From Tubiluchus corallicola (taxonomy: Eukaryota; Priapulida; Priapulimorpha; Priapulimorphida; Tubiluchidae), in NCBI GenBank assembly GCA_030141605.1, contig JAQGDQ010000655.1, forward strand, positions 54,110-118,109: a stretch of 64,000 nt of DNA, read 5' to 3'. The position numbers were made by a program, and so were the translations under genes. The notes under the pieces are model-generated. The model was given only the letters and a program-made list of their open reading frames with translations. It had not been told where the DNA came from and made no database searches. Of this stretch, positions 16,954 through 56,319 are shown in pieces; position 1 is the first letter of the stretch, and every line of letters begins with the position of its first letter.

Positions 16954-17096
16954 ATGCTGTCCTTCCTAGTGGCCATCCTTGTAGTGGGTATCACTCTGCA
17001 ATACATTCATTCCAAGCGTAAAGGAAAGATATGGGATAAATACATTATCTCTGGCTTCGTGAGCCGTGGCTTTGAGGAAGTAGAGCATGCGTTCAG
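16954..17096 (+). CDS. BLD-1 exon 1: membrane anchor
   Basis: An in-frame ATG at 16846 also exists, but the ATG at 16954 starts directly before the hydrophobic segment and lies after an acceptor-like TTTGTAG, so I prefer it. It ends FEEVEHAF plus two bases of Arg, donor CAG|GTAACC. Confidence 0.8.
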
Positions 17097-20000
17097 GTAA
17101 CCACGCTAGAGCTTTTCAAATGTCTCGTAGATTAGATTGGATATTTATTAACATTTGTCAACTCTAAGTACATTGATAAAAGTTGTAATGAGTCCGGGGT
17201 GAAACAAATAGTCCGTAAACAATTTATTCCAAATAACATCTGCTCTCAAACAAACATACAATACACATTACAGTAATAACACATACGAATAATAAGAAAA
17301 TTAGTTGAGCCAAACCATTAGGTAGTTCTACTTGTAATCAAAATTGCATGTCATATTCCTTGGTATTCTTTTAATGCACAGCAAGCAAATGCACACAACT
17401 TTTTGTGATCTTCCTCATTCATTAATTTGTGTATACATACCAGCAACATTGTTAAGACTAAACTCAGTTCTGAAATGACTCGTTCTATGACATTTTAGCA
17501 AAATATGCTCCTTGTCTTGCACTTGGCCACATGAACAAAGCCTATTTTCCACCAGGGTTGTCAGTTTCAATGTTTAGTCCACGAGAGCTGCATCTAATTC
17601 TGGAAAATGCAGTTCTTTGAATTTCGCGTACACTGCTCTCATGTACAATAATAATTTTAATGTTTTTTCCATAATAACTGATGGAAATCTTGCCTATTTA
17701 TAAACTACTGCCAGCAAGGAAAAACAGCTGTTCGGAAAAACGAATTGGTAAAGTTTATAATGATGTACGTTTAGTATCCTCGGAAAATAGGGAAAGACCT
17801 GGTTAGTTTGCATTCTTTTATGCAACTGGCGTAACCCATGGTCACATATGACGCTGCATCAAAACAAATAGAAACCACAGCTGGTAAACAAAGTATTGTG
17901 CACAAAATGTTACTCTTTTAAAAGAGAACTGGACGATTGACTAGACTCAATCTCATTTTAATTTACTGTCCATGTCGTGAATTTCTTTTTCCACGGAATT
18001 TCAGTATACTGGTTTAAAACTAAATCACAAAACACCTTAACTCAAAACTAAATTTCTAAAATTTTAATTCCATATGTTTTGATAGAATCAGTAACACAAC
18101 CGTTTTTTCTAGAGTTAAAGCCACACCTGCCTCAAAACCGGTCCAAAACAAGTTTCACTCAAACAAGTATTCTTCCACCAGTCAAAACTTGGGAAAAAGT
18201 AGGGCCAATTATTATGTATAAAGGCATTAATATGACTAGAGACTTGTGGACTTATTCAAGTTCACAACAGTCCAAAATATACATTCTCTTTCTTATAAAC
18301 GCTAGCAGCAGTTTCTAATATTTGAATAATTACATTGGAAAGTTAATTAACGGCAACCGAATACAGCCATCACTTATGTCACAAAGTAATCACAGTTTGT
18401 GCAATGGTAGCATCTTCCCTGCACGTCAAGCATATTCTAATTCAGGTTCATGGAAAAATATAAGAATTGTCAGCTGGCCTATCAAAGTCATGTCTAATTC
18501 AGGTTCATGGGAAAATATGAGAATTGTCAGCAGGCCTATCAAAGTCATGTCTAATTCAGGTTCATGGGAAAATATGAGAATTGTCAGCTGGCCTATCAAA
18601 GTCATGTCTAATTCAGGTTCATGGGAAAATATGAGAATTGTCAGCAGGCCTATCAAAATCATGTATAATTTAGGGTCTTGGAAAAATATAAGAATTGTCA
18701 GCAGGCCTATCAAAGTCATGTCTAATTCAAGGTTGTGGAACAATATAAAAGTTGTCAGCAGGTCTATCAAAGGCATGTGTAATTTAGGGAACAGTATAAG
18801 AGTTGTCAGCAGGCCTATCAAAGTCATGTCTAATTCAGGGTTGTAGAACAATATGAGAATTATCAGCTTGTCTAATGATTTTGATAGGCCTGTTGACAAT
18901 TTCTATATTTTTACACGGCCCTGAATCTAATAGCTATTTATTATCATATGGATTATTATTGATTGTTATGAATACAGATTGACTACTTTATTGCTGTTGT
19001 GTAAGTTCATTCATTATTGGAGACTCTGGGCATCATTCCTATTTATTTTGTCCATTTTAGGCAACAGTTTATGGACGGAGAAGAGGAGCATGGGGCTGCG
19101 TTTGCAGCTTATTACAAGGGCAACTTAGTAGTTGACCTCTGGGGCGGATACGCAGATAGGAACAGCTTGTACGAGTGGAAAGAGGACACGATGACGAACC
19201 TCTTCTCCGTAACGAAGGGAATCGGGGCTCTCTGCATGGCAGTGTTAGTGGACCATGGACAGATTAACTATGATGATCTAGTCATACGGTATTGGCCGGA
19301 GTTCGGAAAATATGGCAAGAGTCATGTGACAGTGCAGATGCTAATGGCGCATCAGGTCAGCATAAGTAGGGATGTAAGATAAACATGCAGTCAACCTTAG
19401 GTATAAGGTACTCGCTTATAGGGAACATTCGCTTATAAGGGACCACCAACACTAGCCCCAACTTTTCGTAACGTTTTTCCTTGTAAAAATCTTCGTATGC
19501 AAGATGTAAGGGACTTTCGGTTATAAGGGACGATATCTTCAGGTCCCGTGTAATAGAAGCCCAGGTAAGTTACCTCGCATATAAGGGAGCCTATTTGACT
19601 TCCATATAAGAAGGATTTTTAACCCCAATTTTTCGCAAACGCGGCCTTCGAACAGCTCGGTTTCTGCGGTCACATACATCTTGCATCACTTAGTAATGCT
19701 AAATGTATTGTACTTTTATACTGTAGCACCAAATTATCAGGAAAATGTCAAAAAAGACCTAAAATGTAATTTTATTATTCCTTACCCACTTTTTGGTCTA
19801 GAAACTAGTACTGCAATTGTAAAAAAATTTGTATTTTCTAATTCCAATTGTAGCTTGTGGAAGCGCATTTTGCTTCTGTTTTTTTCTGTTGACAAGACCA
19901 GATCTTCGTCAGGAAGAGCCATCTACTGGATTTGAATGTAACTTCAATTTGCTCTTGTAAAATCCATAGCAACCACACTTTCGTACAGTGGCTAAGTGTT

Positions 20001-23000
20001 TTGAGGAGACGCGACAAAAAGCAATGGCTGACTTTAACAGTGGTTTTCTCAAGATTATGTTTTTCAGTGTGCAACCTGCACCTCAGCTTCAACGTGGATT
20101 ATCTCAGCTTAGAGATATCGTTGAGCGATGAGCTTGGTATCAAAATGATCCGCATGAAATGGAGATTCAGGATATGTGAATAACTGTAAAAGCCTAATTG
20201 CGGACTTATGGACGATTTTGCTATGCGAGCACACATATATGTATAAACAGCTATAAACTAGTATAATTTTCAGGCAATTTCCCTGAAACCTACTTCAGGA
20301 ACCCCTTTTCTTGTCCAGCTTGATTTCAGCTTGATTGTTATTATAGGCTGCCATTCCACTCTTGGATGCCGAACTTGACATGAAAACTCTTGCCGACAGG
20401 AGAAAAATGGGAGAAATCCTCTCCGAACAGAAACCGTTCTGGCTTCCGTCCTCCACGGCGCATGGCTACCACATTTTTACACACGGAGCTCTTGTGGACC
20501 AACTGATATGGAAAGTAGATCCGCAGAGTCGGACGTTAGGGCGGTTCTTTCGAGAAGAAATTGCGGAAAAATTTGGTAAGTTAAATAATATTATTGCAAT
20601 CATGTAATCCTGGACAGTAAATTAATCTTTACGTTTCAGTCAAGTGAAATGTGAGTCAGATAAGTCAAATCTCATTATAATTCCTACTTTCCCTTTATAA
20701 TGCCAACCTCGCTTAAAGGAAGACCGGACAATTGTTTAGACTCAATCTCATTTTAATTCGTTGTCCAAAATAATACATTTTCTTGCATATAAAGGTTAAC
20801 ATATGTTCCTTATATTTGAATAATTAGCTTAGAAAGTTAACTAACGGCAACCGAACACAGGTATTGTTTACGTCAGAAACTAACCACAGTTTGTGCAATG
20901 GCAGACATCTTCCCTTGCGCAATCAAGTACATCGCATAAGTGTTACAGTACTGTTTAAACTCGTGATGTCAGGAAAAATGGGCTCTACGTTATATGACGT
21001 CAGAAACTAACACTGCAGTTCGTGATCATGCTTATCATGGTACCGCCTTCTAATTGTCAGCCACATGCACGTGACAAAAAGGTGCCGCTGCCAATCTTAC
21101 TAGATTCACTGAGCCGCGCATAGCTTTGGCAGTGTTTTGATCCAATTAACTGACTGAATCTGTTAGCCGGCGGATGTAGCCTTACTAGTATGGAGATATG
21201 AGTTATCGTTCTTCAGTTTCATAGATGCTGCAAAAGCTGTGAGAGCCTTAATTGTCATGTTTTCTGCTTTAATGATTAATTGTTCTATGAAAAACAGCAA
21301 AAGCTTCAAAAAGAAACCAAAACTAGGCATGTGATTAAAAGTTTAACTTCCATTTATTCTTTGGCAATGAAGTTAACTGCAGTGGATGCGCTGGTGATAG
21401 ATTCAAAGCAAAACTGCCATGCTTGCATAAAAGACCTCAAAAAACATCCTGCTTTCGAACAAAATAGTACTTAGCTTAGACTGTCGTTAGCCACGATGAT
21501 GTACTAAAAATTGAAAGCCCATATTTTAATATTTTTTACAAGTTTTGATGTTTACTGACATACTGTTTGTGCAAGGGCTTTCTAAAAATACACTTTTCTG
21601 GCTTTTTTATCTTAAAGATCTTTCAAAATCAAAGGTGTTTGTAATGTCATTTATTTAGTCTCTCATGTAACATTGTTAATAGATGGTCTGCTTTAATCAG
21701 TTTTGCATCGCAGATGCTGCCGAACAGTGTAAGCATTTTGGACATATTTAACAAACAACGCAACTTTGTATTCCAAACTTTATGTTATGTAATCTTTTTA
21801 ATACTCTCTCTCTGTGTCGAGTGTTTGACTATCGTCCACAAATTAGTAAAATTAAAGTCCGACGACGATCTAGCTATTGCATGTATTTTTTCAAAAAGGT
21901 AAATGGCGACAATAAACTGAAATTACAAAACAGATAAACAAACGATCAGCAAAAAACATTGAAACATAGAGACATATGATGACAGACTGAATAATTACAC
22001 TGCTTTTGCAGTATCAAGAAACTTCCTGCACACTGGACACCCATTAATTCATCGTAGCATTATCTGCTCAAGCGTGTGTGTGAGTCCTCTTCTTGCTGCG
22101 GAGCAATTTGAACAAATCTGTGTATTTGGTTTAAAACCGGCTTATTCACATCGCGCATCTCTTGCATCTCTTGCATCTCTCGCATCTCTTGCATCACCGC
22201 GCATCTCTTGCATCACCTCGCATCATCACATCACACATTACGCTCACTTGGAGTCTTAAGCCAATGATACAAAATACTGAAACCGGTCGATGTCGGCCGT
22301 GGTAGAAAGATCACTCAAATTAGACTACATTAATTTCAAATCAAAGACGACACACGGAATTTATCATTGTGGCCGTGAAGACAACAGCCGCCCTAAAATA
22401 GAAATGAGTTCTATTTCGTACTGCATGCGCCAGCCGCCCAAGTGTTTTATCCAATCCGGGATCAGTATTCCAGCAGTGGCTTTTGCTTTTCCCACGACTT
22501 GTATTGGTATAAATACTGCTATATAAATGAATATTGATATGTATTGATCAGTTTAGTCAGAGTACGGAGTGGTGAATGCGTATGACACCCTTAGAAGAGC
22601 AAGAATCAACTTTCGAGTTTATAAATCTAAATTGAACAAGCAGCATGTTTATGGGATCATACAGATCCTGCATGTAATGATCGCAATGCCTAAAGTCATG
22701 CTTGGGAGCACATTGCTAAAACAATGTCCATATCCAATTTTTAATTTAACTGCAGTATCTATATAAGCCTTACTTCACGCTGTACTGACACAACAATTAA
22801 GCTAAAAAAAATGGACGATCTCCTAGATTATTAATTATAGATCTAATTTTCAACATTAAATCACTATCCACAAGTACTAGGTTTAGTCTAGTGGTAATGC
22901 ATCTGCTTTTCATCTGGGAGGTCGTGAGTTCGAACCAGCGGCCGGGTCATACCAAAGACTTTACAAATGGTACCTGCTGTTGCCCTGCCTGATGTGTGGT

Positions 23001-26000
23001 ATTTAGGGTAACAGTGGGGTAATAATAGTCTCTGTTATGTAGTTGTAGGTTGTTATTTACAGTCAGCAGTAATAGCTCTTTGAGCTAATGTTAATTGTTG
23101 ACCCAAAAGCGACTTTAAATAAAGATTATTATTATTATTATATTATTATTATTATTATTATTATACTAAAACTAAATGGCGGCGAAATGTTTTGTAACAC
23201 GCACAGCACATCTTTTAGTTTAACAGTCCAAATATTTTTTACCGACCAGCATAAACGTCTCTGCTGTTTTCTAGGTATTGAAGCTTATGTTGGTTTGCCA
23301 AAAGAACTCAACTACCGCGTGGCAAGGCTCGGATTCTGTAGCCACACGGTGTCCGACTGGATCGCGTGGATTATTAAATGTCTAACAGAGTTTTTGATGC
23401 CAAACTGGACTTCTTTATTCCGTCAGTTTCTGGATAAGCCTAATCCGCGTCTGTTTGGATTAATCGTAAGCATATTCTCTGGTTCATAATTCGGTCAGGC
23501 CTGCAGACTTTTGTGCCATTCTACTATTTTAGGCTTTTCGGGGAGATGAATAAGTGGCGGCATTGACCGGAGTTAAAAATGGCGATGAGGCTGGTGAATG
23601 AAAAGAACTGGTGAGAAACTTCTGGGCACCTTTATTTGCCATGCTGATTCAGGCTGTTCACCTTACTGGAAGATGTATTCGCATCTACCTTTGACTCAGT
23701 CTCTTCTGCCAATTCAGTGTCTCATCTCAGTGGCGCAACCTTGGCAGCGAGTCATATTCTGGTTACATTTATAACCGGGGACATAGCCAACGTCAAAGCA
23801 AGCACATAAAATAATGTGCCGTAACACATACCAAAAGGGTGTCATGACACATAAAGCAATTGTTTGTCTATGCCACAGCAGACAGTATCAGTGTGTGTCA
23901 GGAATATATTATAATAATACGTTTTGTGGCAATTTGATACTTGGTTCAGTCTGTCATTGTGTATATCAGGGGTGTGCAAATTGCGGCCCGCCAGCCACTT
24001 GCGGCCCGCCGAGAGAACATGTGCGGCCGGCGAAGAGATTTGTCAACCTAATGAAAGTGCGGCCCGGGCGATTAATTGAGTGTATCCAGCTGAAGTCCGT
24101 GCCACGATCCCAAAGATAGTGCGGGTAGTTTTTTCTACTAGATCGGATACCATTAACCCTTACAAGACGGTTGTAGCTTAATGTCACTGTACTACACAGA
24201 CTGTGTGATACACATTACTAATATGCATTGTAATGAAATTACCACTATCTATCCTGAAAGTAGAAATATATGGTTTGTAATATAAATTTTAATAACTTCT
24301 AAAATAGTTTCTTGAGTGTAGTAGTAATGATGTACGCAGGTCGGATGCGAAGAAATCGTTATTAGGCCTTTCTGTACTTGGCTCGTTGATCAAACTGCTC
24401 GTGGCCCGCAGAAATTGCGGGAAAGTTTAATGTGGCCCGGCTAGTCAGATAATTTGCACACCCCTGGTGTATATTGACAACGACATTGTGTATATTACGA
24501 GTATCATTTTCAACAGACACTCTAAACGTAACATTCATTAAGAATTTATGTTTTTATGCAGGGGAACAGTATGTTCAACAATATAGACTTCCGATCCTTA
24601 GAATTTCCGTCTGCTAACGGAATTGGTTCAGCCAGAGGGTTAGCAAAATTGTATGGAATTTTGGCCAGCGGAGGCACCCACGGCGGACGAGTTCTCTTAT
24701 CCCCGGACGTCTTGCAAAAGGTAAGGCGATCGTATTTCAAAAGGTAAGGAAGTGCTGAGAATTTGTAACGTTAAACTAATTGACCAGCATCATCTTCGCT
24801 CTCCCGGCGACTCCAACCATGTGACATCAGAGATACTATCAGGTGGTGCAAAAAAAATGTGCGGAAGTTTTGAGCACCATATTATAAGAAGAAAATAATG
24901 GAATCGCTTGAAAATTGTCCCACTGATGTTACAGACGATTGTATGTAAACACCAAAAATTTTACAGCATTCCTGTAGAACTTTTTAAAGATATAGAAGTT
25001 TTAAATCGACACCGTGAAAAATAAACAATGCAAAAAGTTTGCGTGTCATTGTTGTTAAAATTTACACCATGTTCTACGTATCTACCGTTTTCGAAGCAAA
25101 CAAGACGAACACGATTCTTTCTCTACCTGATACACCTTCCCACTTCTTTAAAGGACAAGAAAAGGCCTAGTTAAAGCAAGTCTCAGAAAATTTTCGCTAA
25201 AGAATTATAACGGTTAGAGGCAATCTTGAGCGTTTATCGTACTCGCTTTAAAAGAATTTCCGTTTATAGATCTAATGTATCACGTTGAGCAAAAAATATG
25301 CCAACGTTTTGGTCAGGATTTTATAAGGAGAAAATAACAAAATCGCTTGAAAATTGCCTCACTAAGGCCAGAAACGGTTTTGTATAAGCGTCGAAAATCT
25401 CTGCCATATGCTCAGATTTTGCAAACGATACGGAAGTTTTACAACAAAATCAATGCCGGGAAAATTCTCACTGTGAAAAATTCTTAAACATGCAGTAAAT
25501 TCCTAGGTCTATACGTCCAGCAGATTCTATTGCAAACTAGACGAAGGCTTTTATTCCAGATGCTGACACAGTTTCTGACTTCTCTGCATCAAACGGTCCT
25601 GTGCATTCGTCGTACACGTTGTTCTTAAGGGAATTCCAGGTTCAGTGAATTAATTTAAAGGACAAGAAAAGGCCTAGTTAAAGAAAGTCTCAGAAAATTT
25701 TCGCTAAGGAAACGGTTAGAGGCAATCTTAAGCGTTTATCGTACTCACGTTAAAAGAATTTCCTGTCTTTTTTCACTTTGAATACTCCCGCGAGACTGTC
25801 ACGGCGGCGCCATATTAGATGGCATCACAGAACCACAACACAAATCTTTATAGTACACGTGCTCAGAACTCGCTGCGACTGTGTTCTAGTGATGTCATCC
25901 ACGTGATCAGCCACATGCTGGCTTTTCAAATGGCGGACTAAATGAAACATGTCGCGCCAACGTTTACTGCAGCGATTGAAATATTTTACAAAAATTCTAT

Positions 26001-26253
26001 TTTCTAATAACAGATTCAAAGGAAAGTGACGAGTGGAAAAGACAAAGTTGTCGGTTACCTTCCTGGTCGGTTTAAACCTCAGTTTACAGCGGGTGGTTTC
26101 TACACTGGCGCACCTTTTACAGGCCCACAGGTATGTAAAAATTTCATTTCCACTGTCCAAGTGACTTTAATAGACGTTCCACCTAGTTGTGGCATTGGGA
26201 AGCTTTGCAATAAAAAGTGTACATCTGTCTGCATCGCAGCTTTTCTCAAGTCG

Positions 26254-26296
<43 letters not shown>

Positions 26297-28548
26297 TTGA
26301 TGCAGTACATTGACAAGTGAGAAAGAAGTTAGTACTCAATGTATGTGTGCTTGCATAACAAAATTATTAAGCAATAACATAACATAACATAACAAAAGCA
26401 ATTAAGCTTTTCTAATTATTCACATATCCCGAATCTCCATTTCATGAAGATCATTTTGATACCAAGCTCATCGCTCTATGTTATTTCTAAACTGAAATAA
26501 TTCATGTGGAAGTTCAGGTGCAGGCTGCACACAAGATATCATTGATTTTGATTTGATTTAACTCCTTCTTTCGAAATAGGTTCATAGAATACATAACATA
26601 CAATAATTATTACCCCTCCTCCCAACATATACAAATTAATACATAAGTAAATAAAATAACAGTACAATATATGTATGTATATATATATATGTTTATTGAC
26701 TGATTAAGAGATAGTCGAACATGATACTTTAGTTCAGTCCATAGATCACTACAAAAAAAGGACTTTTGATCATATAACATGACCATTACTGTCAAAAAAT
26801 AACTGAAGAATTATTTACAAATTCCACTTCACACTTATTATCGCCTAACATGATCATTACTGTCCAAAAATCGCTAAACAGTTATTTACAAATTCACAAT
26901 ATGACTTTGGGTTTCCATTGAAAAATTCATGCAGATCGTTGAAGCTCAGTTCAGTGTTATCTTCACGAAGGTGATTAGTAAGTAGACAAAAACAGATAAC
27001 ATGCTCTTCTGTTTGAATATTTAAGCCAGGACAGGAGCATAGCCTGTCCTCTCTTTTTATCCTTGCCCATCTTCCAGTCTCAATATCGTACTTCCAGCCT
27101 GAATCGTCACCCATAATTTCTACCTAATACTTTCCTCCATCCGCTTCTTATGTCTGAAGTGTAAAATGCGTCACTTTATTCAATGCCTTTATAAGAAGAT
27201 TTGAGCTTTGCATTACTCTACTGTATAAACTGTCAACCATCAGACATATGTTGACATGTTCCCTTGCACTAACACACTTTAAAAGGAAAGAAAAGGGACT
27301 TTTAAAGAATCTCCTAAAGAATGCTGCCTGTTTAAAAGACTTATATAATTGAAAAACAAAAACAAAATTCTTATTAATATAAAATGTTCGCCTCACTTGG
27401 TAAAGTGTCACTGCGTCGCCATCCCAGTATGCACCATTGGATCACCAAAAAAAACACCTTACGAATCTTATTGACAATATAAAGCAATTTTAATTTTTGC
27501 TTAGTTTGTGAGGATATGCTAGAATCAGTTTTTCAATCTTTACACAATATTCTCTATACTTCTTTCGACTGACTTACTGTCAAAATGGCTGCCCCTAACG
27601 GTCATTCCGGGAGTTTAAATTTACAAGTTTTATACAGCGTTACTGCTAATACAAGCTCTTTACGCAATAAGACAGCATGTAAATGATATAAAATTTCAAG
27701 ACAATTTTTTAAACGTTATTTATGAAGAGCGTTTTCTTGTCCTTTAAATAATATGATACTTAAGGGAAAACCGGATGATTGCGTAAACATTAGTTCAGAA
27801 TAAAGAATGCTCTAAAATGTTGAAAACTGCAATAGCTTTTTTTTAAATCGAAACTTAGATTAAATAATAATTACCTCGGATAGTTAAATTTCTCTTAAAC
27901 GGTTCAGTGAATCTACTAAGATTGGCAGCGGCGCCTTTTTGTCACGTTCGCGTGGCCGATAAATAGAAGGCGATACCGTGATTAGCATGATCATGAACTG
28001 CAGTGTTACTTTCTGACGTTATATGGCGTAGAGCCAATTTTTCGCGACATCATGCATTTAAGCAGTACTGTAACACCTATGCAAATGTGCTTGATGCGCA
28101 ATGGAAAACAACTCCTGCCCTTGCAGAAACTGTGGTTAGTTTCTGACGTAAGCAATAGCTGTGGCTACCGTTAATTAACTTTCTAAGCTAATTATTCAAA
28201 TATAAGGGACAATAGTCAACTTTTATAGGCAAGAAAATGTATATTTTGGACAGTAACTTAAAATGAGATTGAGTCTAAACAATCATCCGGTCTTCCTTTA
28301 ACAAGTTTTGGTCACTTATTCTAAAACTTACGTATCTATTTTCTGCACGAATGTTAAATTCCTAAAATTTTCAGGGCAAACACACATTTGGCTGTCCTGG
28401 TTACGGTGGGCAGGCAGCGTTTGCCGATCCTACCAATCAGCTTGGCTGGGCATATCTTACTAATGGCATCAGACATCGTGACGTGGACAATAGATCCTTG
28501 AAACTGATGAAGTCCTTGTACCACTGCGTGAACAAGCTACAGAAGTAG
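16954..28548 (+). CDS. BLD-1: membrane-anchored beta-lactamase-like serine hydrolase, 7 exons, 435 aa
   Basis: Joined exons: 16954-17096, 19061-19355, 20347-20575, 23275-23465, 24562-24720, 26014-26130, 28375-28548 (1308 nt, phases 2,0,1,0,0,0, all GT-AG). The N-terminus is a hydrophobic anchor (residues 2-18, LSFLVAILVVGITLQYI) followed by a Lys/Arg stretch (SKRKGK), giving either a type II or a signal-anchor topology. The catalytic domain belongs to the class C beta-lactamase/penicillin-binding-like family (Pfam Beta-lactamase), as in animal LACTB-type proteins. It shows HGAAFAAYYKG and VVDLWGGYAD, the SxxK box Ser97-Val-Thr-Lys100 in FSVTKG, MLMAHQ, the second-box Tyr187 in HGYHIFTHG, then FPSANGIGSARGLAKLYGIL and a C-terminal FGCPGYGGQAAFADP. 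The natural substrate is unknown. The first box and Tyr are intact, so it is probably an active hydrolase. Tandem with BLD-2 and BLD-3. Confidence 0.93.
17217..17580 (-). mobile_element. LINE 3'-end fragment with reverse-transcriptase C-terminal zinc motif
   Basis: The minus strand reads ENRLCSCGQVQDKEHILLKC then HRTSHFRTEF at about 17545-17455. This is the C-x-C-G...EH..L.C cysteine-histidine motif typical of the C-terminus of many animal non-LTR retrotransposon polymerases. Stops interrupt it downstream. It lies in BLD-1 intron 1. Confidence 0.75.
17922..18435. mobile_element. TTAA-flanked transposon family, copy A (partial)
   Basis: TTTTAAAAGAGAACTGGACG then ATTGACTAGACTCAATCTCA matches the left end at 20713 (TTAAAGGAAGACCGGACAATTG...). 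Further inside, CACAGTTTGTGCAATGG.AG and CATCTTCCCT are shared with 20880-20920. The right part is replaced by the 57-bp array. Confidence 0.65.
18436..18850. repeat. 57-bp minisatellite, about 7-8 copies, open on both strands
   Basis: The unit begins TCTAATTCAGGTTCATGGGA and ends CAGGCCTATCAAAGTCATG. Exact phase points at 18493 and 18550 give a 57-bp period. As 57 is 19 codons, one stop-free unit keeps frames of 174 and 157 codons open on opposite strands. It lies in BLD-1 intron 1, not in the spliced message. I do not read it as a gene. Confidence 0.92.
19061..19355 (+). CDS. BLD-1 exon 2: N-terminal half of catalytic domain with SxxK
   Basis: Acceptor CATTTTAG, donor CAG|GTCAGC. It holds LWGGYAD and FSVTKG in a single exon; the BLD-2 counterpart is split inside the same motif. 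Confidence 0.95.
19396..19680. repeat. Internally repeated element end with CGCTTATAAGGGA motifs
   Basis: CTCGCTTATAGGGAACATTC, CGCTTATAAGGGACC, CGGTTATAAGGGACG and CGCATATAAGGGAGCC recur at 19410-19590. The pattern resembles decayed Tc1/mariner-pogo termini. Element ends were not resolved. Confidence 0.4.
19722..20234 (-). mobile_element. 38-bp-TIR element family, truncated copy
   Basis: The right terminus GGACGATTTTGCTATGCGAG then CACACA, preceded by GAAATGGAGATTCAGGATAT and CCTCAGCTTCAACGTGGATT, is the reverse of the family's left terminus. It corresponds to 45780-46293 and lacks the other end. It lies in BLD-1 intron 2. Confidence 0.75.
20347..20575 (+). CDS. BLD-1 exon 3: second catalytic box
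   Basis: Starts AAIPLLDAELD and carries PFWLPSSTAHGYHIFTHG with the conserved Tyr-His, then RTLGRFFREEIAEKF. Phase 0 in, phase 1 out; donor G|GTAAGT. Confidence 0.95.
20713..21115. mobile_element. TTAA-flanked transposon family, copy B (partial)
   Basis: Begins TTAAAGGAAGACCGGACAAT. The body is the reverse complement of 27900-28301, with shared GACGTCAGAAACTAAC, AACTGCAG or CTGCAGTT, CATGAT.A..TTAGC and GATTCACTGA blocks. Only one terminus is visible. Confidence 0.75.
21130..22140. other. BLD-1 intron 3, unannotated part
   Basis: AT-rich. ORFs of about 60 codons lack recognisable domains and splice context. Nothing further supported. Confidence 0.4.
22148..22222. repeat. Imperfect CATCTCTTG repeat
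   Basis: Runs of GCATCTCTTGCATCTCTTG with CATCACCGC variants, about 8 units, in BLD-1 intron 3. Confidence 0.75.
22880..23164 (+). mobile_element. tRNA-derived SINE, copy 1
   Basis: The head holds a perfect pol III A box TAGTCTAGTGG (22884-22894) and B box GTTCGAACC (22928-22936). An unrelated body follows (GGTACCTGCTGTTGCCCTGC, then TGTTGACCCAAAAGC), and a TTTAAATAAAG(ATT)n tail to 23164. About 90% similar by eye to 34533-34889. It lies in BLD-1 intron 3, same strand. The body makes it a SINE and not a functional tRNA gene. Confidence 0.88.
23275..23465 (+). CDS. BLD-1 exon 4: GLPKEL motif and paralog-specific helix
   Basis: GIEAYVGLPKELNYRVARL matches BLD-2 exon 5. The rest (Trp/Ile/Leu-rich) is divergent between the paralogs, as expected for the variable lid region. 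Acceptor TTTTCTAG, donor ATC|GTAAGC. Confidence 0.92.
23967..24466 (+). mobile_element. hAT-like MITE 'CAGGGGTGTGC', copy 1, 500 bp, with 8-bp TSD
   Basis: Termini CAGGGGTGTGCAAATTGCGG and CAGATAATTTGCACACCCCT then G are inverted. The flanks GTGTATAT at 23959-23966 and 24467-24474 are identical 8-bp target duplications, the hAT hallmark. No transposase is encoded; ORFs inside it recur in the other copies. In BLD-1 intron 4. Confidence 0.92.
24562..24720 (+). CDS. BLD-1 exon 5: SANGIGSARGLAKLY motif
   Basis: Encodes FPSANGIGSARGLAKLYGIL, a family hallmark, then LLSPDVLQK. Acceptor TTTTATGCAG, donor AAG|GTAAGG. Phase 0 on both sides. Confidence 0.95.
25150..25770. repeat. Direct repeat pair of about 110 bp (25150-25262 and 25655-25765)
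   Basis: Both copies begin TTTAAAGGACAAGAAAAGGC, then CTAGTTAAAG.AAGTCTCAG, AAAATTTTCGCTAA, GGTTAGAGGCAATCTT and GCGTTTATCGTACTC. The outer copies bracket about 400 bp, which suggests terminal repeats of one element. In BLD-1 intron 5. A related inverted piece (TTTTCTTGTCCTTTAAATA) is at 27732. Confidence 0.7.
26014..26130 (+). CDS. BLD-1 exon 6
   Basis: Encodes IQRKVTSGKDKVVGYLPG, then FTAGGFYTGAPFTGPQ. BLD-2 exon 7 has the parallel [10 protein letters not shown] and [12 protein letters not shown]. Acceptor AATAACAG, donor CAG|GTATGT. Phase 0 both sides. Confidence 0.93.
26254..26296. repeat. (AT)n microsatellite
   Basis: About 20 TA units with one CA interruption, in BLD-1 intron 6. Confidence 0.9.
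26344..26541 (+). mobile_element. 38-bp-TIR element family, left-end fragment
   Basis: TGTGTGCTTGCATAACAAAA, then after a short ACATA repeat AATTAAGCTTTTCTAATTAT, TCACATATCC.GAATCTCC and CAGGTGCAGGCTGCACAC. The right half is missing. Confidence 0.7.
26545..27170 (-). mobile_element. LINE 3'-end fragment
   Basis: The minus frame at 27114-26857 reads ETGRWARIKREDRLCSCPG, then LNIQTEEHVICFC and LLTNHLRED. GRW.RI.R.DRLC.C...Q.EEHV...C is the terminal motif of reverse-transcriptase ORFs in several LINE clades. The frame is intact for 85 codons, then closed. It lies in BLD-1 intron 6. Most likely a dead 5'-truncated insertion. Confidence 0.8.
27760..28301. mobile_element. TTAA-flanked transposon family, full-length copy
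   Basis: Left TTAAGGGAAAACCGGATGAT, right end reverse complement TTAAAGGAAGACCGGATGAT then TG. Both ends carry TTAA and a TIR of about 22 bp. TTAA target duplication is characteristic of piggyBac, which is a tentative assignment. The body matches 20713-21115 in inverted orientation. No transposase. In BLD-1 intron 6. Confidence 0.75.
28375..28548 (+). CDS. BLD-1 exon 7: C-terminus
   Basis: Encodes GKHTFGCPGYGGQAAFADP, then LGWAYLTNGIRH and stops after KLQK (TAG). The glycine-rich loop is where a Lys/His-Thr/Ser-Gly third box would sit; here it is Cys-Pro-Gly. No canonical AATAAA lies within the first 200 bp after the stop. Confidence 0.93.
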   Translation, partial: GKHTFGCPGYGGQAAFADPTNQLGWAYLTNGIRHRDVDNRSLKLMKSLYHCVNKLQK

Positions 28549-29087: not shown

Positions 29088-29655
29088 CAGGGGTGTGCAA
29101 ATTGCGGCCCTCCGAGAGATTTTGTGCGGCCCGCGAAGAGATTTGTCAACCTAATGAAAGTGTGGCCCGGGCGATGAATTGAGTGTATCCAGCTGAAGTC
29201 ATCGCCACGATCCCAAAGACAGTGCGGGCAATTTTTTCAACTAGATCGGATAGCATTAACCCTTACAAGACGGTTGTCACTTAATGTTACTGTCGGACAT
29301 GACAAAATTACACATTACTCACTTGGAACACAAAAAAGTGATGTAATAACATGGAGTCAAGGCAGGTTAATATGCACTGTACTACACAGACTGTTTGATA
29401 CACATTACTAATATGCATTGTAATGAAATTACCACTATCTGTCTTGAAAGTAGAAATATATGGTTTGTTATATAAATTTTAATAACTTCTAAAATAGTTT
29501 CTTGAGTGTAGTAGTAATTATGTGCACAGATCGGATGCAAAAAATCGTTATTAGGCCCTTCTGTACTTGGCTCCTTGATCAAACTGTCTGTGGCCCGCAG
29601 GAATTGCGGGAAAGTTTAATGTGGCCCGGCTAGTCAGATAATTTGCACACCCTTG
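29088..29655 (+). mobile_element. hAT-like MITE 'CAGGGGTGTGC', copy 2, 568 bp, with 8-bp TSD
   Basis: Same termini as 23967-24466, with one C-to-T change in the right end. Flanks TTGTAGGC at 29080-29087 and 29656-29663 are identical. It is 68 bp longer than copy 1, mainly from extra sequence around 29280-29370. Intergenic, just downstream of BLD-1. Confidence 0.92.
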
Positions 29656-33512: not shown

Positions 33513-33574
33513 ATGGCTGGTGTCAACGGTGGTCGTGTGAGAGTAGGTTTTGAACATGTGCAAGACGTCTTCAG
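33513..33574 (+). CDS. BLD-2 exon 1
   Basis: The ATG at 33513 begins a 20-codon exon ending F plus two bases of Arg, donor [19 protein letters not shown] aligns with GFEEVEHAFR of BLD-1 and GFELVRDEFR of BLD-3, which fixes the exon even though it is short. Confidence 0.85.
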
Positions 33575-34778: not shown

Positions 34779-34870
<92 letters not shown>

Positions 34871-43800: not shown

Positions 43801-46800
43801 ATATCCTAGTTTACTCTCTCTGTTTAGCGCTGACAGTGTCATTTTTAGATTGACTCTGCGTGTGTGTGTGTGTGTAAAGGTTTCATAGCCATGCAGGTGG
43901 TGCTGGGTTCAATCTCAGGTTCGTGATCCGCAAACTGAGCATGAAGAGACAACTTATGAAATTTTTGTCAAATATTAAACTCATGTTGAATATCATGTCG
44001 TAAACATGCAAAACAATAATAATCCAAACATCTAAACATTACTGTACCAAAATATTTTGACCAATGGCATGTCTGGCTTACTGTTACGATGCTTAACCAA
44101 CAGAAATTCATTACAGCTGTTATGTTTCAGCGTGTGACAATTAACCAATCAAAACTGATTCAAGTTGTTATAAATGTTGTTCAATAAATGTCTGTCTTAT
44201 GTCTTTTATTATTTTATTTGCACAGTTTATAGTACATAGAACAAAAAATTTAAAATAATTAATATAAAAACTGAAGAACATCCTAAATAATATTACATAA
44301 AGACGTGGTTATAAAACTTGATTACAGTTAAAAGAAAATAAAATACATTGTTACTAACGACTATTTATAAGTAATTCTTTTTAAATATTTCAAATTTTGT
44401 AATTTTACTTAATTTGGTTTTGATTACACATTGATTGTTTGCTTGCCCTGACTATAAATCATCTTGTGCCAGTATTAGATTTTGCAGTAGGAATAATTTG
44501 TAAATATGAACTGTCTAGTGGTCCGAGAGGTCGTATTACAATTGAACTTTAGCTGATTATGGATGTAAGTTGGTTGTTTAGCGGTCAGTATTTTGTGGAG
44601 CAAGCAAACATCAGCTAATTCTTTAACAAATAAAAGTTTCTAATTTATAATTGTGTCAGATATGTGGTCATATTTTTGCTAGTTTGTCATGACCCTGCGA
44701 AGTTTATAATCAGTGCTATCTGCAAAATTATATCTTGTATTTTAACCCATTAGAAGTGTGGAATTTTTCATAATAGTGGACGCTTTGTAGCTGATTAGCT
44801 GCTCCAACTAGTTCTAATACGTGTGCTTGCAAACCAAAACCGTTCACAAGTTGGCACATGATGCTTCAAAGTAGAATAAACCAAAAAGTGGGCCAAATGT
44901 TTTATAGAAACAAACGCTAAATACATTGGACTTTATTGTAACATTAATTTTCATATACAATTTGCTTTATAGTTTTAATTTCGTTTTTTGTACTAAAGTT
45001 TAGTTTACGTTTAGATCATTGTATTTTTTGTAGTCAGGCTGCTGGAATAATCCGGAAATACGGGAAGTAGAACTCGCATCTGCAAACGGTATTGGCACGG
45101 CGCGCGATCTGGCTAAGCTCTACAGCATTTTGGCTACCGGTGGAAAACAGGGGGAGAGAACGCTTTTGTCAGAAGAGACTTTAAACATCGTAAGCATGAA
45201 GAAATATAATTTAAACATCAAGCATTTTTCTATTTAATTCAATTCAATTCAATCCTTTTTTTGGCTGATTTGCAACACAAAAGATTAAACTATATACATA
45301 CTGATAATAACAATGCAATAATAAACACAGGTACAGTTTGGAAATTGTACAAATTAGCCTCGAGCAGAGTAGGAGTGTGAGCTTTCAAGACTCACCACTA
45401 GACGGCGCAGACAGGGAAATACATACAAAATAGCTCAAAGTTAAAACATATGGAGCTATAAAAACAATGTTTATAAATGAGTTTCTCTAGTTGTTTTTAG
45501 TTTTAATTTTATGCACAGTAGTTTATAGTTTGCACCGAACTCACTTGCCTTTAGCAGTGTTTTAATAATTATTAATTAGTTTTAACACTGACGATTGTGA
45601 TTTTATTGTAATTCATTTTATGGCAAGTAAAGTATTATTACATGTGAGCTTGCAAACCAAGATCGTCCACAAGTCGGCATAGTTAAAACTACATTGTGAT
45701 CCTTCAAAGTAGAAAGCACCAAAATATGGTCAGATATCATTTTTTGTTTTTCGTAAAACAAATGCTGTATATATTGGACTTTTATATTCTATCATCAAAT
45801 TATCAAGAAATTGTTAAAAAATACTAAAAATTTAATTTTATAATCCTGTACCCTCTTCGTTGGCTAGAAACTAATATTGCAATTGTAAAGAACTCGTATT
45901 TTCAAACTCCAGTAATTGCTCATGGAAGCAATCATTTTGCTTGGGTTTTTTGTGTTGCCAAGCCCAGATCTTCATCAAGAAAAGCCATCTACAGGATTTA
46001 AACAGAACCTCAATGTGCTCTTGCAAAGTCCATAGTAACCAACGTTAGGTTTTGTAGAAATGCAGCAAAAACCAATGGCTGACTCTTAACAGCGAACAGC
46101 GATTTTCTCAAAGTTGTGTTCTTCAGTGCGTAGCCTGCACCTCAACTTCAACGTGGATTATCTCAGCTTAAAAATAACATAGAGTGATGAACTTGGTGTT
46201 AAACGATCCTCATGGAATGGAGATTCAGGATATGTGAATAACTAGAAAAGCTTAATTGCCAACTTACGGACGATTTTGCTATGCAGGCACACATATATTT
46301 ATGATTGGTAACTGGCTGATTATTTCTTCTAATCAGTTGCTGGTTAATCGATCATATCAGTAAATTGCACAATTGGTACACCTCTAATTGAAAGTTTATT
46401 TTAATGAGAGCTACTTAATTTTTCTGAGTGAAAATTATTGCTTTTGTAGCAAGCAACACGTAGAGGAACTAACTGTTATTTGTGTTAGTTTATGCATCAT
46501 GATTCGTTTGCAGAATAATTCCAAATATTTGTAAATTCCAAATCACTTATTCTCATTAAGCGTAAAAAGTTGAAATTATTTATGAATGTTAATGAATATG
46601 TTCACTTGTTTGCAGATACAAGAGCAAGCCACATCGGGCAAAGATGTCGCGTACGGTGATCTTTTTGAATCGCAGTTCACGACCGGTGGATTTTTTACGG
46701 GTTCTGGATTTAACGCACTCGATGTAAGTATATGCATATTTCGTTTTGGCGGACCTAACTTTTACGTATATCGGAACAATCGGACAAAATCTGGACCGTT

Positions 46801-48231
46801 AAAAAGTCCTGCATACTACAAACACGTTGTTTCGCGAGCTGACCGCTGACTGGACGTCACTTGGCTTGCATCATTACACCAATGTAAGCACATGTATATC
46901 TCTATATATAAAAATAAAGAGTCAATTATGCTGAGTTATATGAGTCAATTGCCGACAGTTTTCATATACTTTCGCATAGGAGCAGCCCGTACTAGACGTT
47001 TTTGAGACAATTAGGCTCTATGTTTCAGTGAGTCTAATACATGGCACTACTGTATTAACTTAGTATCGGTAAATATGGACAATTGGTAAATTTCTACTGA
47101 TGTCTCCCTACTTTTGTCTGGCAAATCGACATATGAGTGTAATCCCGATTTTCAGTAAGTAAAAATTCACAAGTTATTCTGCAGTTAGCCTGTTTTTTAC
47201 AAACTTTGCATGGGTTACAATTGCTCAAACGCGAAGCATTCAAACGCATACATGTTTGAGTGGTGCCGGTCCAAAATATTTGCGTCTTTTATAAAGCATT
47301 TTCGTGGCGTGTTAAGCTGTGCTTGGCAGAATTCTTGTTGGTAGCTGAGCTGAGACTCATCAGTGCTTGCTACTTGTTGGTAGCTGTGCTGAGACTCATC
47401 AGTTCTTGCTACTTGTTGGTAGCTGTGCTGAGACTCATCAGTTGTTGCTACTTGTTGGTAGCTGTGCTGAGACTCATCAGTTCTTGCTACTTGTTGGTAG
47501 CAGGCTTTTATACCAAGATCCTTTCTGGACTTTTTCGTTTTGAATAAATTTGTGAAGTGCTTCATGGTGTTTTGTACAGTAAATAAAGCATTCTTCGCGG
47601 GGTATCAATAGATTTTTCTCAAGTAGATAAATTATCGTAATATTTGAACAAAAACAGCCGACATGTTGAAATAGCTAAAAACGTACAACTGCAATAATGT
47701 TATTTGTGCAAATGATGAATATGGATTTTTTTGTGCGCTAATTATATTTGCAAAAAATTGTATAAGATTTCACACAGCTGCAAGCCATAGATTAGCTCAA
47801 GCTGGTACAATAGGTTGCCATGGTGTTCATAGCACACTGTATCCATTGTCCTGCTGTATCTTCTAATAACAAGACTGGGCTAAAGCAAAGTTGATGTTGC
47901 TATGGTGACTAAGCGAGTTTTTTCTGCCATCTAGGGGCGAGTCAAAAAAGCATTAGAAGCGAGTAACTTCACTACTAGCAGTTTTACGTTTACGAACATT
48001 TTACGTATTTTTTAGGGAAGTCCCATGTTCGGATCTCCAGGATTCGGTTTGCAAGGAGCGTTTGCCAATCCGAAGAACCAACTGTCCGTTGCTTATGCCA
48101 CAAACGGCATTTCGCTAGACATGACGGACAAGCGATTCTTGTCGCTTATTCAGGCCACGTGTCGGTGCATAGAAAGGCTTGAATCAGAAATGGTGTCTTC
48201 AGAGATAGTGGCAACAAAACAAGTGCAATAG
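33513..48231 (+). CDS. BLD-2: beta-lactamase-like serine hydrolase without membrane anchor, 8 exons, 416 aa
   Basis: Joined exons: 33513-33574, 35607-35764, 38246-38382, 40466-40691, 41294-41481, 45034-45189, 46616-46723, 48016-48231 (1251 nt, all GT-AG, phases 2,1,0,1,0,0,0). The first exon gives only [20 protein letters not shown], with no hydrophobic segment, so the protein is probably soluble. The catalytic domain has [20 protein letters not shown], the SxxK box Ser70-Thr-Thr-Lys73 in FSTTKG, Tyr159 in [51 protein letters not shown] and a C-terminal [17 protein letters not shown]. It is a tandem paralog of BLD-1: exon order and phases match, except for one extra intron after the SxxK Lys codon. 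Substrate unknown. The third box is Ser-Pro-Gly instead of Lys/His-Thr/Ser-Gly. Confidence 0.92.
33874..33995. repeat. Transposon-end-like fragment (partner at 56870-56995)
   Basis: CAGCGGCGGATACAGGCTTT, then GGGGGTCTGGGGAAGCCCGG and CAATGCATTTTACTGCATTT. The last block recurs as CGATGCATTTTTCTGCATTT at 56940, also after a G-rich GG.CC run. Probably the same decayed family. Confidence 0.5.
34533..34889 (+). mobile_element. tRNA-derived SINE, copy 2, with long (ATT)n tail
   Basis: Same head as 22880 (A box TAGTCTAGTGG, B box GTTCGAACC), same body and TTTAAATAAAG end. The tail is about 110 bp of ATT units with two interruptions. The antisense poly-Asn frame here is the tail, not a gene. In BLD-2 intron 1. 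Confidence 0.88.
35270..35440. repeat. Dispersed repeat, copy 2 (partner at 7304-7490)
   Basis: Shares TTTAGTTGTTTT..TGGACTTTA, GATCTTGCTTGGAAACAAGA, TACTATTACAATAGCA and GTTGTCAAGTGTACACAAAT with 7304-7490. BLD-2 intron 1. Confidence 0.75.
35607..35764 (+). CDS. BLD-2 exon 2: LWGGWAD and SxxK box
   Basis: Acceptor TTTTTTTCTAG. It ends TCGACCACTAAAG|GTGATC, so the donor lies directly after the catalytic Lys codon (phase 1 in the following Gly). Confidence 0.92.
36760..37225. repeat. Dispersed repeat, copy 1 (partner at 43130-43640)
   Basis: Colinear with 43130-43640: GGGCACTAGCGCTGGCATTT then CAGAAA versus GGGCACCAGCGCCCGCATTT then CAGAAA, CAGTAGCACTGTATTTCAAA and TTTGTGAAAATTATGTTCAG. Both copies are in BLD-2 introns (2 and 5), same strand. 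Confidence 0.75.
37481..38200. mobile_element. pogo/Tigger-like non-autonomous element
   Basis: Left TAAGTCCTAGCTTAATGATG, right AGTCGTTAAGCGAGGACTAA; the right end reverse-complemented is TTAGTCCTCGCTTAACGACT. The next bases AACATCGTTAAACGAAAC and AAACGTCGCTAAAAGG continue a subterminal repeat. TA at both ends fits Tc1/mariner-pogo target use. About 720 bp, no transposase seen. It ends about 45 bp before the acceptor of BLD-2 exon 3. Confidence 0.7.
38246..38382 (+). CDS. BLD-2 exon 3
   Basis: [20 protein letters not shown], then [20 protein letters not shown] and HQ. It corresponds to the second half of BLD-1 exon 2. Acceptor TTGTTTAG, donor CAG|GTATGT. Confidence 0.94.
38761..39416 (+). 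mobile_element. 38-bp-TIR element family, full-length copy
   Basis: Left TGTGTGTTTCCATAGCAAAA then TCGTCCATAAGTCACAGTTA; right GCCGACTTATGGGCAGTTTT then GGTTTGCAAGCACGCA. Flanked by TA on both sides, suggesting a TA target. In BLD-2 intron 3. Confidence 0.82.
39559..40077. mobile_element. hAT-like element with internally duplicated left end
   Basis: Left TAGTGATGGGCGATTAATAG, right AAAATCGCCTATCACCA. The flanks CCTTGTAT (39551-39558) and TTTTGTAT (40078-40085) match at 6 of 8. The left about 155 bp is repeated in tandem at about 39714 (TGGTGATGGGCGATTAATAG ... CACAAATAAACTGAAT). BLD-2 intron 3. Confidence 0.65.
40466..40691 (+). CDS. BLD-2 exon 4: second catalytic box
   Basis: [20 protein letters not shown], then [20 protein letters not shown] and [10 protein letters not shown]. 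Donor TTTG|GTAGGA. The last 30 bases plus the donor and about 120 bp of intron are repeated three more times downstream (40813, 40969, 41120). Confidence 0.94.
40661..41150 (+). repeat. Tandem duplication of a BLD-2 exon end and splice donor, 4 copies, about 152 bp
   Basis: TTTTTTAAGGACGAAGTTGC at 40661 is the real exon 4 end. TTTTTTAAAGACAAAGTTGC recurs at 40813, 40969 and 41120. Copy 3 retains GAACCCTTTGGTAGGACTG, a perfect donor in the coding frame. Copy 2 has CCTTGGTGAATG and copy 4 is broken after GTTGC. An AG precedes each copy only weakly (AAGCAA, AACAG, AAGCAG). The intron parts are GTTTGTTT-rich. Confidence 0.92.
41294..41481 (+). CDS. BLD-2 exon 5
   Basis: [20 protein letters not shown], then a Gly/Ser-rich and basic variable segment ending NPPFMKN. 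Acceptor CCTATAG, donor AAC|GTAAGT. Confidence 0.93.
41529..41946 (+). mobile_element. 38-bp-TIR element family, internally deleted copy
   Basis: Both ends present (TGTATCCTTGCACAGCAAAA ... TTTTGGTTTGCAAGTACACA), but about 230 bp of the interior is missing. TA flanks both ends. Starts 47 bp after the donor of BLD-2 exon 5. Confidence 0.8.
43130..43640. repeat. Dispersed repeat, copy 2 (partner at 36760-37225)
   Basis: Carries the same landmark order as 36760-37225: GGGCACCAGCGCCCGCATTT, CAGTAGCACTGTACTTCAA, GCTTGTGAAAATTATGTTTG. No terminal structure was resolved. The 88-codon open frame here is not supported as a gene. Confidence 0.75.
44205..44660 (-). mobile_element. LINE 3'-end fragment
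   Basis: The minus frame reads [20 protein letters not shown], then [12 protein letters not shown] and [19 protein letters not shown].....P.Y....L.......R..R is a familiar C-terminal segment of non-LTR polymerases. A stop follows. In BLD-2 intron 5. Confidence 0.65.
44821..44943 (-). mobile_element. 38-bp-TIR element family, end fragment
   Basis: GTGTGCTTGCAAACCAAAAC, then CGTTCACAAGTTGGCA and GATGCTTCAAAGTAGAA, ending at GGACTTTATT. Single-ended. It lies about 90 bp upstream of BLD-2 exon 6. Confidence 0.7.
45034..45189 (+). CDS. BLD-2 exon 6: [15 protein letters not shown] motif
   Basis: Starts [20 protein letters not shown], then [20 protein letters not shown] and ends LNI. Acceptor TTTTTTGTAG, donor ATC|GTAAGC. 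Confidence 0.94.
45236..45420. repeat. Possible antisense LINE 3'-tail with (AATTC)n
   Basis: TTCAATTCAATTCAATCCTT, then TTTTTGGCTGATTTGCAAC. Similar tail-like starts occur at 55383 and 26528. No coding motif survives. Confidence 0.35.
45643..46293 (-). mobile_element. 38-bp-TIR element family, full-length inverted copy
   Basis: Left TGTGAGCTTGCAAACCAAGA then TCGTCCACAAGTCGGCA; right TTGCCAACTTACGGACGATT then TTGCTATGCAGGCACACA. The ends are inverted repeats of about 38 bp. In BLD-2 intron 6. Confidence 0.85.
46616..46723 (+). CDS. BLD-2 exon 7
   Basis: [20 protein letters not shown], then [16 protein letters not shown]. Acceptor TTGTTTGCAG, donor GAT|GTAAGT. Phase 0 both sides. Confidence 0.92.
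47335..47503. repeat. 39-bp minisatellite, about 4 copies, open on both strands
   Basis: The unit TTGTTGGTAGCTGTGCTGAG then ACTCATCAGTTCTTGCTAC starts at 47335 and 47374. As 39 is 13 codons, it yields repeating peptides on both strands (plus [13 protein letters not shown], minus [13 protein letters not shown]). It lies in BLD-2 intron 7 with no splice context. Confidence 0.9.
48016..48231 (+). CDS. BLD-2 exon 8: C-terminus
   Basis: [19 protein letters not shown], then [14 protein letters not shown] and a tail longer than that of BLD-1 by about 14 residues ([18 protein letters not shown]), stop TAG. Acceptor TATTTTTTAG. Confidence 0.93.
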   Translation, partial: GSPMFGSPGFGLQGAFANPKNQLSVAYATNGISLDMTDKRFLSLIQATCRCIERLESEMVSSEIVATKQVQ

Positions 48232-50095: not shown

Positions 50096-50103
50096 ACACA
50101 TTT

Positions 50104-50880
50104 TACAAGGCTTCACACTGACATACAAACGTTCTATATGTTTTTGAAGGCTACAGATTGAAATACAAACGTTCTACACCATGTTTCAAGGCTTCACACT
50201 GACATACAAACGTTCTATATGTTTTTGAAGGCTACAGATTGAAATACAAACGTTCTACACCATGTTTCAAGGCTTCACACTGATATACAAACGATCCACA
50301 TGCTTTACAAGGCTTCACGCTGACATGCAAACGTTCCATATGCTTTTCCAAGGCTACAGATTGAAATACAAACGTTTTACACCATGTTTCAAGCTTCGCA
50401 CTGGCATACAAACAATCCAAGTGCCTTTCAAGGCTTCACACTAATATACAAACGTTCTACAAGCTTTTCAAGGCTACAGATTGAAATACAAACGTTCCAC
50501 TCGTTTTTCAAGGCTTCGCACTGACATGCAAACGATCCACGCGCCTTTCAAGGCTTCACACTGATATACAAACGTTCTGCACGCTTTTCCAGATTTCACA
50601 CTGATGTACAAATGATCCACATGCTTTACAAGGCTCCACACTGAAATACAAACGTTCTGCACGCTTTCCCGGACTTCACACTGACGTACAAATGATCCAC
50701 ATGTTTTACAAGGCTTCAAACTGACATACAAACGTTCTGCACGCTTTCCCAGACTTCACACTGACGTACAAATGATCCACATGCTTTACAAGGCTTCACA
50801 CTGACATACAAACGTAAAACATGTTTTTCAGGGCTTCACATTGAAATACAAACGTTTCACACAATTTCTCAAGGCCTTGT
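50104..50880. repeat. 40-bp tandem repeat array, about 19 units
   Basis: The unit AAGGCTTCACACTGACATAC then AAACGTTCTACATGCTTTTC repeats with a 40-41 bp spacing (for example 50228, 50269, 50309). Variants alternate ACGTTCTGCACGC and ATGATCCACATGC, hinting at an 80-bp higher-order unit. Period 40 is not a codon multiple; the Cys/Val-rich frames on it are by-products. Confidence 0.92.
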
Positions 50881-55860: not shown

Positions 55861-55864
55861 TGAG

Positions 55865-55932: not shown

Positions 55933-56050
55933 TCACGCTGTTGCTTGTTAGTGAATGGATAACAGCTGGTATGGAAGGAATTTAAACTTTCAAAAACCTG
56001 ATTAAGGCTGGCAGCTCGGGTTCAACATGGGGTGATACTGATGCAACAAC

Positions 56051-56319
56051 ATGCCGGACGATTCAAACGCTGCTCCCGAGCGTGCCGCTTCCGCATCTGC
56101 CGCTAACGGCGGCTGCTGGTGTACCTGTCACGCGGTGGAAGCGACTGCTGCCAAAGCCGCTTCCGAACGTAGATCAACGTGCGTGCCATGGTGGAAATTA
56201 GCACTTGCGGTTTTAGCGTTCGCGTACGTGTATATGGTGTATGTGAACAGCGTCGCGTTGCCGGTGCTTGTCGACGGTAACGTAGAAACGGGTTTTGAAC
56301 TTGTTCGAGATGAATTCAG
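56051..56319 (+). CDS. BLD-3: first exon of a third beta-lactamase-like serine hydrolase
   Basis: The ATG at 56051 opens an 89-codon exon ending GFELVRDEF plus two bases of Arg, donor CAG|GTAAGC, phase 2. The end matches exon 1 of BLD-1 (GFEEVEHAFR) and BLD-2 ([10 protein letters not shown]) in sequence and phase, which is the basis for the assignment. The N-terminus is cytosolic-like, Ala/Ser- and Cys-rich (GGCWCTCHAVEA). It is followed by basic residues and the hydrophobic anchor WWKLALAVLAFAYVYMVYV (about 47-65), then a short stem. The exon is GC-rich compared with its surroundings. No second exon (LWGG..AD, SxxK) appears up to 64000. A short out-of-frame upstream ATG at 56040 overlaps the start. 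Confidence 0.82.

Follow-up and report, generated by a model that had tools for sequence, protein, structure and literature searches.

We analysed a window of 64,000 nucleotides from the priapulid Tubiluchus corallicola (assembly GCA_030141605.1, contig JAQGDQ010000655.1, positions 54,110 to 118,109 of the forward strand), in which a first-pass annotation had placed a tandem trio of beta-lactamase-like hydrolases, here called BLD-1, BLD-2 and BLD-3. BLD-1 and BLD-2 are real, intact, intron-containing animal genes, and BLD-3 is a first exon of the same family, not yet a gene. By splicing the exons of the first-pass annotation we obtained a coding sequence of 7 exons and 435 amino acids for BLD-1 (window positions 16954-28548, plus strand) and one of 8 exons and 428 amino acids for BLD-2 (33477-48231, plus strand). 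Every intron of both genes has GT-AG borders, and each open frame is ended by a single stop codon.

Exon 1 of BLD-1 (16954-17096) encodes a hydrophobic N-terminal stretch of about 17 residues with a basic flank, and ends in GFEEVEHAFR at a phase-2 donor. The nucleophile motif S-V-T-K lies in exon 2 (19061-19355), the tyrosine motif HGYHIFTHG in exon 3 (20347-20575) and the block SANGIGSAR in exon 5 (24562-24720), while exon 7 (28375-28548) holds the stop codon and a third motif in which C-P-G replaces H-x-G; exons 4 and 6 lie at 23275-23465 and 26014-26130. In BLD-2, exon 1 (33477-33574) has no hydrophobic anchor and ends likewise at a phase-2 donor. It is followed by exon 2 with S-T-T-K (35607-35764), exon 3 (38246-38382), exon 4 with the tyrosine motif HGYHAMTYG (40466-40691), exon 5 (41294-41481), exon 6 with the block SANGIGTAR (45034-45189), exon 7 (46616-46723) and exon 8 with the stop codon and the third motif S-P-G (48016-48231).

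An alignment of the two proteins over 401 positions gives 47% identity. Their 13 introns are between 602 and 3,552 bases long, and each of the six BLD-1 introns has a BLD-2 partner of the same phase, five of them in the identical alignment column and one off by a single column. Since the synonymous sites are saturated (proportion of synonymous differences, pS, 0.82; nonsynonymous distance, dN, 0.49), we regard the two genes as an old pair. A search of all six frames of the window with the family profile gave no fourth copy; the only extras worth mentioning are weak matches where the end of BLD-2 exon 4 is repeated in tandem. There, a 152-base tandem repeat (3.2 copies, 40659-41140) spans the exon end, and the additional exon-end copies sit in the following intron. 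One of them (to 40999) has an identical CCTTTG|GTAGG donor; as the period is not a multiple of three, splicing at a later donor would change the reading frame. Another tandem array, of a 39-base unit (4.3 copies, 96% matches, 47334-47501), lies within intron 7 of BLD-2.

Both proteins match the Pfam family PF00144 (Beta-lactamase) above its gathering score of 27 (BLD-1: E-value 2.6e-48, 165.4 bits; BLD-2: 1.3e-58, 199.2 bits), so that the common fold that had been claimed for all three genes holds for these two; exon 1 of BLD-3 alone has no PF00144 match. Among the protein sequences in the PDB, the closest are bacterial carboxylesterases and esterases (5GMX, 5GKV, 8J5V, the fenoxaprop-ethyl hydrolase 7Y3Z and EstA, 3ZYT), with E-values down to 4e-61. 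Class C beta-lactamases such as AmpC, on the other hand, share the Pfam family and S-x-x-K with the BLD proteins but match them only at 2.7e-4 and weaker. In bacterial and archaeal genomes, a single scan found 71 relatives; two with fewer than 330 amino acids were dropped and 69 used. The top bacterial matches reach 34-41% identity over most of the protein length, and one stretch of 117 residues (L065) has 52%. No viral relatives were found among 103 candidate stretches.

In the 69 bacterial relatives, the serine (67 of 69) and the lysine (68 of 69) of S-x-x-K and the tyrosine of the second motif (68 of 69) are near-constant, and all three are kept in BLD-1 and BLD-2. The nucleophile motifs, SVTK and STTK, have the S-x-x-K form of family VIII carboxylesterases, subfamily VIII.3, which is also that of the metazoan LACTB proteins. 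The second motifs, YHI in BLD-1 and YHA in BLD-2, agree with the Y-x-x of subfamily VIII.3 and not with the [SY]x[NT] of LACTB; among the bacterial relatives the second residue of this motif is histidine in 50 and the third alanine in 41. The third motif, C-P-G in BLD-1 and S-P-G in BLD-2, is neither the K-T-G of class C, nor the [KH][ST]G of LACTB, nor the H-x-x of subfamily VIII.3. Taken together, the comparisons indicate that BLD-1 and BLD-2 are most likely beta-lactamase-fold serine hydrolases, nearest to the bacterial carboxylesterases, and not true class C beta-lactamases. Because of the third motif we do not file them as members of subfamily VIII.3 and say only that they work like these. 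The catalytic residues are present, and going by the chemistry of the family, the serine of S-x-x-K would attack the carbonyl of the ester, the lysine of S-x-x-K and the tyrosine of Y-H-x would activate this serine, and water or another alcohol would then free the acyl group.

When the genome of the animal (343.5 Mb, 2,344 contigs) was searched with exon 2, the 10 matches comprised BLD-1, two pieces of BLD-2, three loci on contig C1844, single loci on C1915, C1743 and C1739, and a further, weak match on C1299. The family thus comprises at least eight catalytic copies, including a second tandem trio on the minus strand of C1844 (C1844:214255-237715, L082-L085), whose members C1844a, C1844b and C1844c have best identities of 69% (a and b) and 65% (c and b) over the tree rows. 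The C1299 stretch (C1299:155309-156175, L093) is a single open run that reaches 102.8 bits with the family profile; with S-V-S-K and Y-S-N it looks like a different type, and our guess is that it is perhaps a LACTB-type gene. The copy on C1739 (C1739:58208-63089, L091 and L092) has no exon 1 in C1739:32001-58207, that is, in the 26 kb upstream (C1739:1-32000 was not read), and no 3' exons before the contig end. The intron directly 3' of S-T-T-K in BLD-2 is absent from the exon-2 stretches of all seven other copies, BLD-1 among them. Furthermore, C1743 and C1915 share an intron right after the tyrosine motif (YHAFT), which is not seen in the profile matches of the other copies.

We calculated trees of the copies with 26 and with 11 hand-chosen bacterial rows out of the 69; the rows of the copies were profile-matched exon pieces, from which short exons and parts of others are absent, and not exact gene models. 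In both trees the eight copies form one clade (support 100/97 with 26 bacterial rows and 99/96 with 11). In the larger tree the C1844 trio (100/100) and the pair of C1915 and C1743 (99/99) are solid, and the placement of BLD-1, BLD-2 and C1739 is unsettled. In the smaller tree BLD-2 lies slightly closer to C1915 (path 1.33) than to BLD-1 (1.42), and BLD-1 slightly closer to BLD-2 than to C1915 (1.50). The eight or more catalytic copies would descend from one ancestor and would have been spread by old duplications.

The third active-site motif of the BLD proteins aligns with H-D-G of EstA (the 3ZYT alignment, in two stretches, covers all three motifs). At the first residue of this motif the 69 bacterial rows have histidine in 52 cases, phenylalanine in 8, threonine in 4, tyrosine in 2, tryptophan and alanine in 1 each and a gap in 1; serine and cysteine do not occur. 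In the animal, the motif could be read in six of the eight copies, since the exon was not found in C1739 or in C1743 (whose last exons were missing from the stretch read). Five of the six have serine (BLD-2, C1844a, C1844b, C1844c and C1915) and one, BLD-1, has cysteine. Where the bacterial 5GMX, 5GKV and 8J5V have FGH[SP]G, the animal copies have FG[SC]PG; 7Y3Z, also bacterial, lies outside that alignment. The third motifs given for class C and family VIII enzymes in PMC9795927 are K-T-G, W-x-G and H-x-x. In 3ZYT, replacing HDG with HGG or WGG reportedly made an acyltransferase out of the hydrolase (PMC10048530, PMC9795927), so that the animal copies diverge from their bacterial relatives at a residue said to determine the reaction type. 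Some caution is in order, as 16 of the 69 bacterial rows likewise have no histidine there, and the comparison covers one animal genome.

The first exons of the three genes were said to share their end and to differ in their N-termini, and we find both. All three end in G-F-E-x-V-x-x-x-F-R followed by a phase-2 GT donor, at 17096, 33574 and 56319 on the same strand. Upstream of this end, BLD-1 has its hydrophobic stretch and basic flank, the first exon of BLD-2 has no hydrophobic stretch, and in BLD-3 (exon 1, 56051-56319, plus strand) 49 alanine-rich residues with four cysteines precede a hydrophobic stretch near residues 50-68, after which the exon runs to GFELVRDEFR and its donor, ending in GNVETGFELVRDEFR. 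A hydrophobic stretch near the N-terminus is also present in each of the five further copies with a known first exon, which makes seven of eight first exons (C1739, whose first exon was not found, is left out of this tally). The best 19-residue segments of the seven have scores of 0.23-3.14 on a membrane-insertion scale, where low values are membrane-like, and mean hydropathies of 1.74-2.35, as compared to 10.07 and 0.66 for BLD-2. For BLD-2, no convincing anchor exon was seen upstream, where the frames and AG sites were inspected by eye.

Since it is present in seven of eight first exons, the anchor is most simply taken to be ancestral, and it was probably lost in BLD-2. The retargeting of single genes to different compartments, as it had been proposed, is in this respect overstated: what stands is the loss of the anchor in BLD-2 and the added head of BLD-3. 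The ancestral protein would have been held in a membrane, most likely that of the endoplasmic reticulum, by its N-terminal anchor; BLD-2 would have lost the anchor and is predicted to be cytosolic, and BLD-3 would have gained the alanine- and cysteine-rich head. The flank charge difference is +3 for BLD-1 and -5 for both BLD-3 and C1844c. From these values, the catalytic domain of BLD-1 is predicted to face the cytosol, that of C1844c the lumen, and that of BLD-3 the lumen or the outside; these placements are rule-of-thumb predictions from a hydrophobicity scale and a charge rule.

To score the common exon end, we built a profile of 15 positions solely from the 69 bacterial relatives and applied it to the 52,911 15-residue segments of the six-frame translation of the window. 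BLD-3 ranks first (26.8), BLD-1 second (24.8) and BLD-2 third (18.8), and the next best segment scores 11.0. Note that two peptide patterns had served to collect the bacterial rows and that the exon-1-end motif of BLD-1 and BLD-2 was one of these patterns, so the ranks of these two are partly circular; BLD-3 was not used, and its rank is independent. In the whole genome, a strict DNA pattern of the exon end has six exact matches, all of them first exons of the family, compared to one match of a reversed control pattern; it misses the two divergent first exons of C1743 and C1844c. Searches with whole first exons gave matches that are weak on their own: C1844b finds BLD-3 with 58% identity over 24 residues (E-value 0.066), and BLD-3 finds C1844b with 43% over 35 (E-value 1.7). 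These genome-wide first-exon searches are not exhaustive, as the C1844b query gave four matches and missed BLD-1, BLD-2, C1915 and C1844c.

To the right of BLD-3 exon 1, a search of 56320-64000 with the family profile gave no catalytic exon, and the contig (C686) ends at the last base of the window; we therefore treat BLD-3 as a first exon only. It would be where a third copy begins, the remainder lying off the contig; within the window, the side-by-side trio amounts to two complete catalytic domains, the third being cut off by the contig end. Potentially, the exon could be an orphan, either a dead remnant or part of a gene that has lost its catalytic exons, given that the 7.68 kb up to the contig end exceed every intron of BLD-1 and BLD-2. 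We think this less likely than not, as its 89 codons are open, its motif and donor are intact, it has the top profile score in the window, and the contig simply stops. Moreover, the C1739 copy, itself without an exon 1 in the 26 kb before it, could be the other half, which would need an intron of more than 65 kb. As for the origin of the pair, the local duplication that had been proposed is confirmed in so far as BLD-1 and BLD-2 are paralogs from an old duplication, and that one arose from the other by tandem duplication is possible. That they are true sisters has, in our view, a little less than an even chance. They adjoin on the same strand with matching introns, and an earlier tree joined them with a support of 99; that tree held no other copy of this genome and says nothing on sisterhood. 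Once the six other copies are included the question is not settled: a tree constrained to unite BLD-1 and BLD-2 is worse by 1.0 log unit (p-value of the approximately unbiased test, p-AU, 0.29), and the grouping is neither favoured nor rejected. A recent transfer from bacteria would account for the fact that all searchable relatives outside this genome are bacterial, with the identities given above. We rejected it, in agreement with the first-pass annotation, because the copies form one clade and share introns; with the saturated synonymous sites and an animal-type neighbour gene also against it, such a transfer is very unlikely. In the earlier tree the bacterial neighbours (Paenibacillus and one Neomarinimicrobiota) are on long branches and come from a sample drawn by two peptide patterns, and for these reasons we do not name a donor.

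The fold may have been kept while the chemistry shifted, with serine or cysteine in place of the third-motif histidine favouring acyl transfer to a lipid, a glycoside or another alcohol over hydrolysis. The alignment with H-D-G of 3ZYT and the absence of serine and cysteine from the bacterial relatives speak for such a shift. However, the reported switch is to glycine or tryptophan and not to Ser/Cys-Pro-Gly, and the position evidently tolerates change in bacteria, so we consider the shift unlikely. Equally doubtful is the wider idea that the animal copies form a catalytic class outside K-T-G, W-x-G and H-x-x, in which hydrolysis and acyl transfer are balanced differently, and that a change of the first exon alone has put such enzymes on both membrane faces and in the cytosol. 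The explanation that we prefer is that BLD-1 and BLD-2 are beta-lactamase-fold serine carboxylesterases of an already known animal kind, BLD-1 membrane-tethered and BLD-2 soluble, and we hold it with good confidence. Several observations weigh against it: the S/C-P-G motif departs from all those listed in PMC9795927, and the enzymes may have a changed activity or none; the anchor score is weak evidence, a stretch of the BLD-2 catalytic core (2.46) being better than the anchor of C1844b (3.14); the flank charges are even in four of the seven anchored copies; BLD-3 has no catalytic exon in the window or its contig; and both genes are models built from DNA sequence. It is for the overlap of the anchor scores with the BLD-2 core that our confidence is slightly lower than it would otherwise be.

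The left neighbour of BLD-1, on the minus strand (578-13368), is a PRRC2/BAT2-like gene, which points to an animal genome. Two joined exon pieces of it match Pfam BAT2_N (E-value 1.3e-40), followed by proline-rich and arginine-serine-rich open stretches; two other pieces have no Pfam match. The window also contains several repeats. An element of about 480-570 bases is present in three copies (23967-24466, 29088-29655 and 61043-61521) with 16-base inverted ends, CAGGGGTGTGCAAATT, one of the six ends having one mismatch. The first copy is flanked by an 8-base repeat, GTGTATAT, as we would expect for hAT-type elements. A short repeat in two copies (22880-23164 and 34533-34889, 94% identity over 231 bases) has tRNA-like A and B boxes and an (ATT)n tail, and we take it to be a SINE-like (short interspersed) element. 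A repeat family of several hundred bases recurs in both orientations between 19866 and 48943, in introns of BLD-1 and BLD-2 and in the intergenic gaps. Finally, about 19 repeat units, each of 40 bases, form a minisatellite (50102-50856) between BLD-2 and BLD-3.

In databases, animal proteins of this type are named "beta-lactamase domain-containing protein 2". The name "beta-lactamase domain-containing protein 2-like" gave no match in the open-licence literature, nor did we find there (subscription papers being outside the search) a paper assigning a function to the animal esterase-like members. Among the known systems, the study of Peitsaro et al. 2008 (PMC2266909) describes an "esterase-like" lineage of metazoan LACTB with five copies in nematodes, two in echinoderms and none in vertebrates. 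Like these, the BLD genes are animal, multi-copy and of the penicillin-binding protein/beta-lactamase fold with an active-site serine, and, going by the published description, the locus most likely belongs to this lineage. Since two of the motifs which that paper required, [SY]x[NT] and [KH][ST]G, are Y-H-I or Y-H-A and C-P-G or S-P-G here, we stop short of counting it as a tested member. The likeness to EstA and subfamily VIII.3 (Table 1 of PMC9795927) lies in S-x-x-K and Y-x-x, whereas the BLD genes differ in the third motif and have introns and an N-terminal anchor.

In summary, this is an old family of a known kind, and the locus offers two complete and clean gene models together with a set of eight or more copies from a single genome. 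The first exons suggest that family members as a rule have an N-terminal anchor, which is then not the novelty of one copy. Serine or cysteine in place of histidine, at the motif on which the choice between hydrolysis and acyl transfer is reported to depend, makes for a pointed question which simple enzymology could answer.

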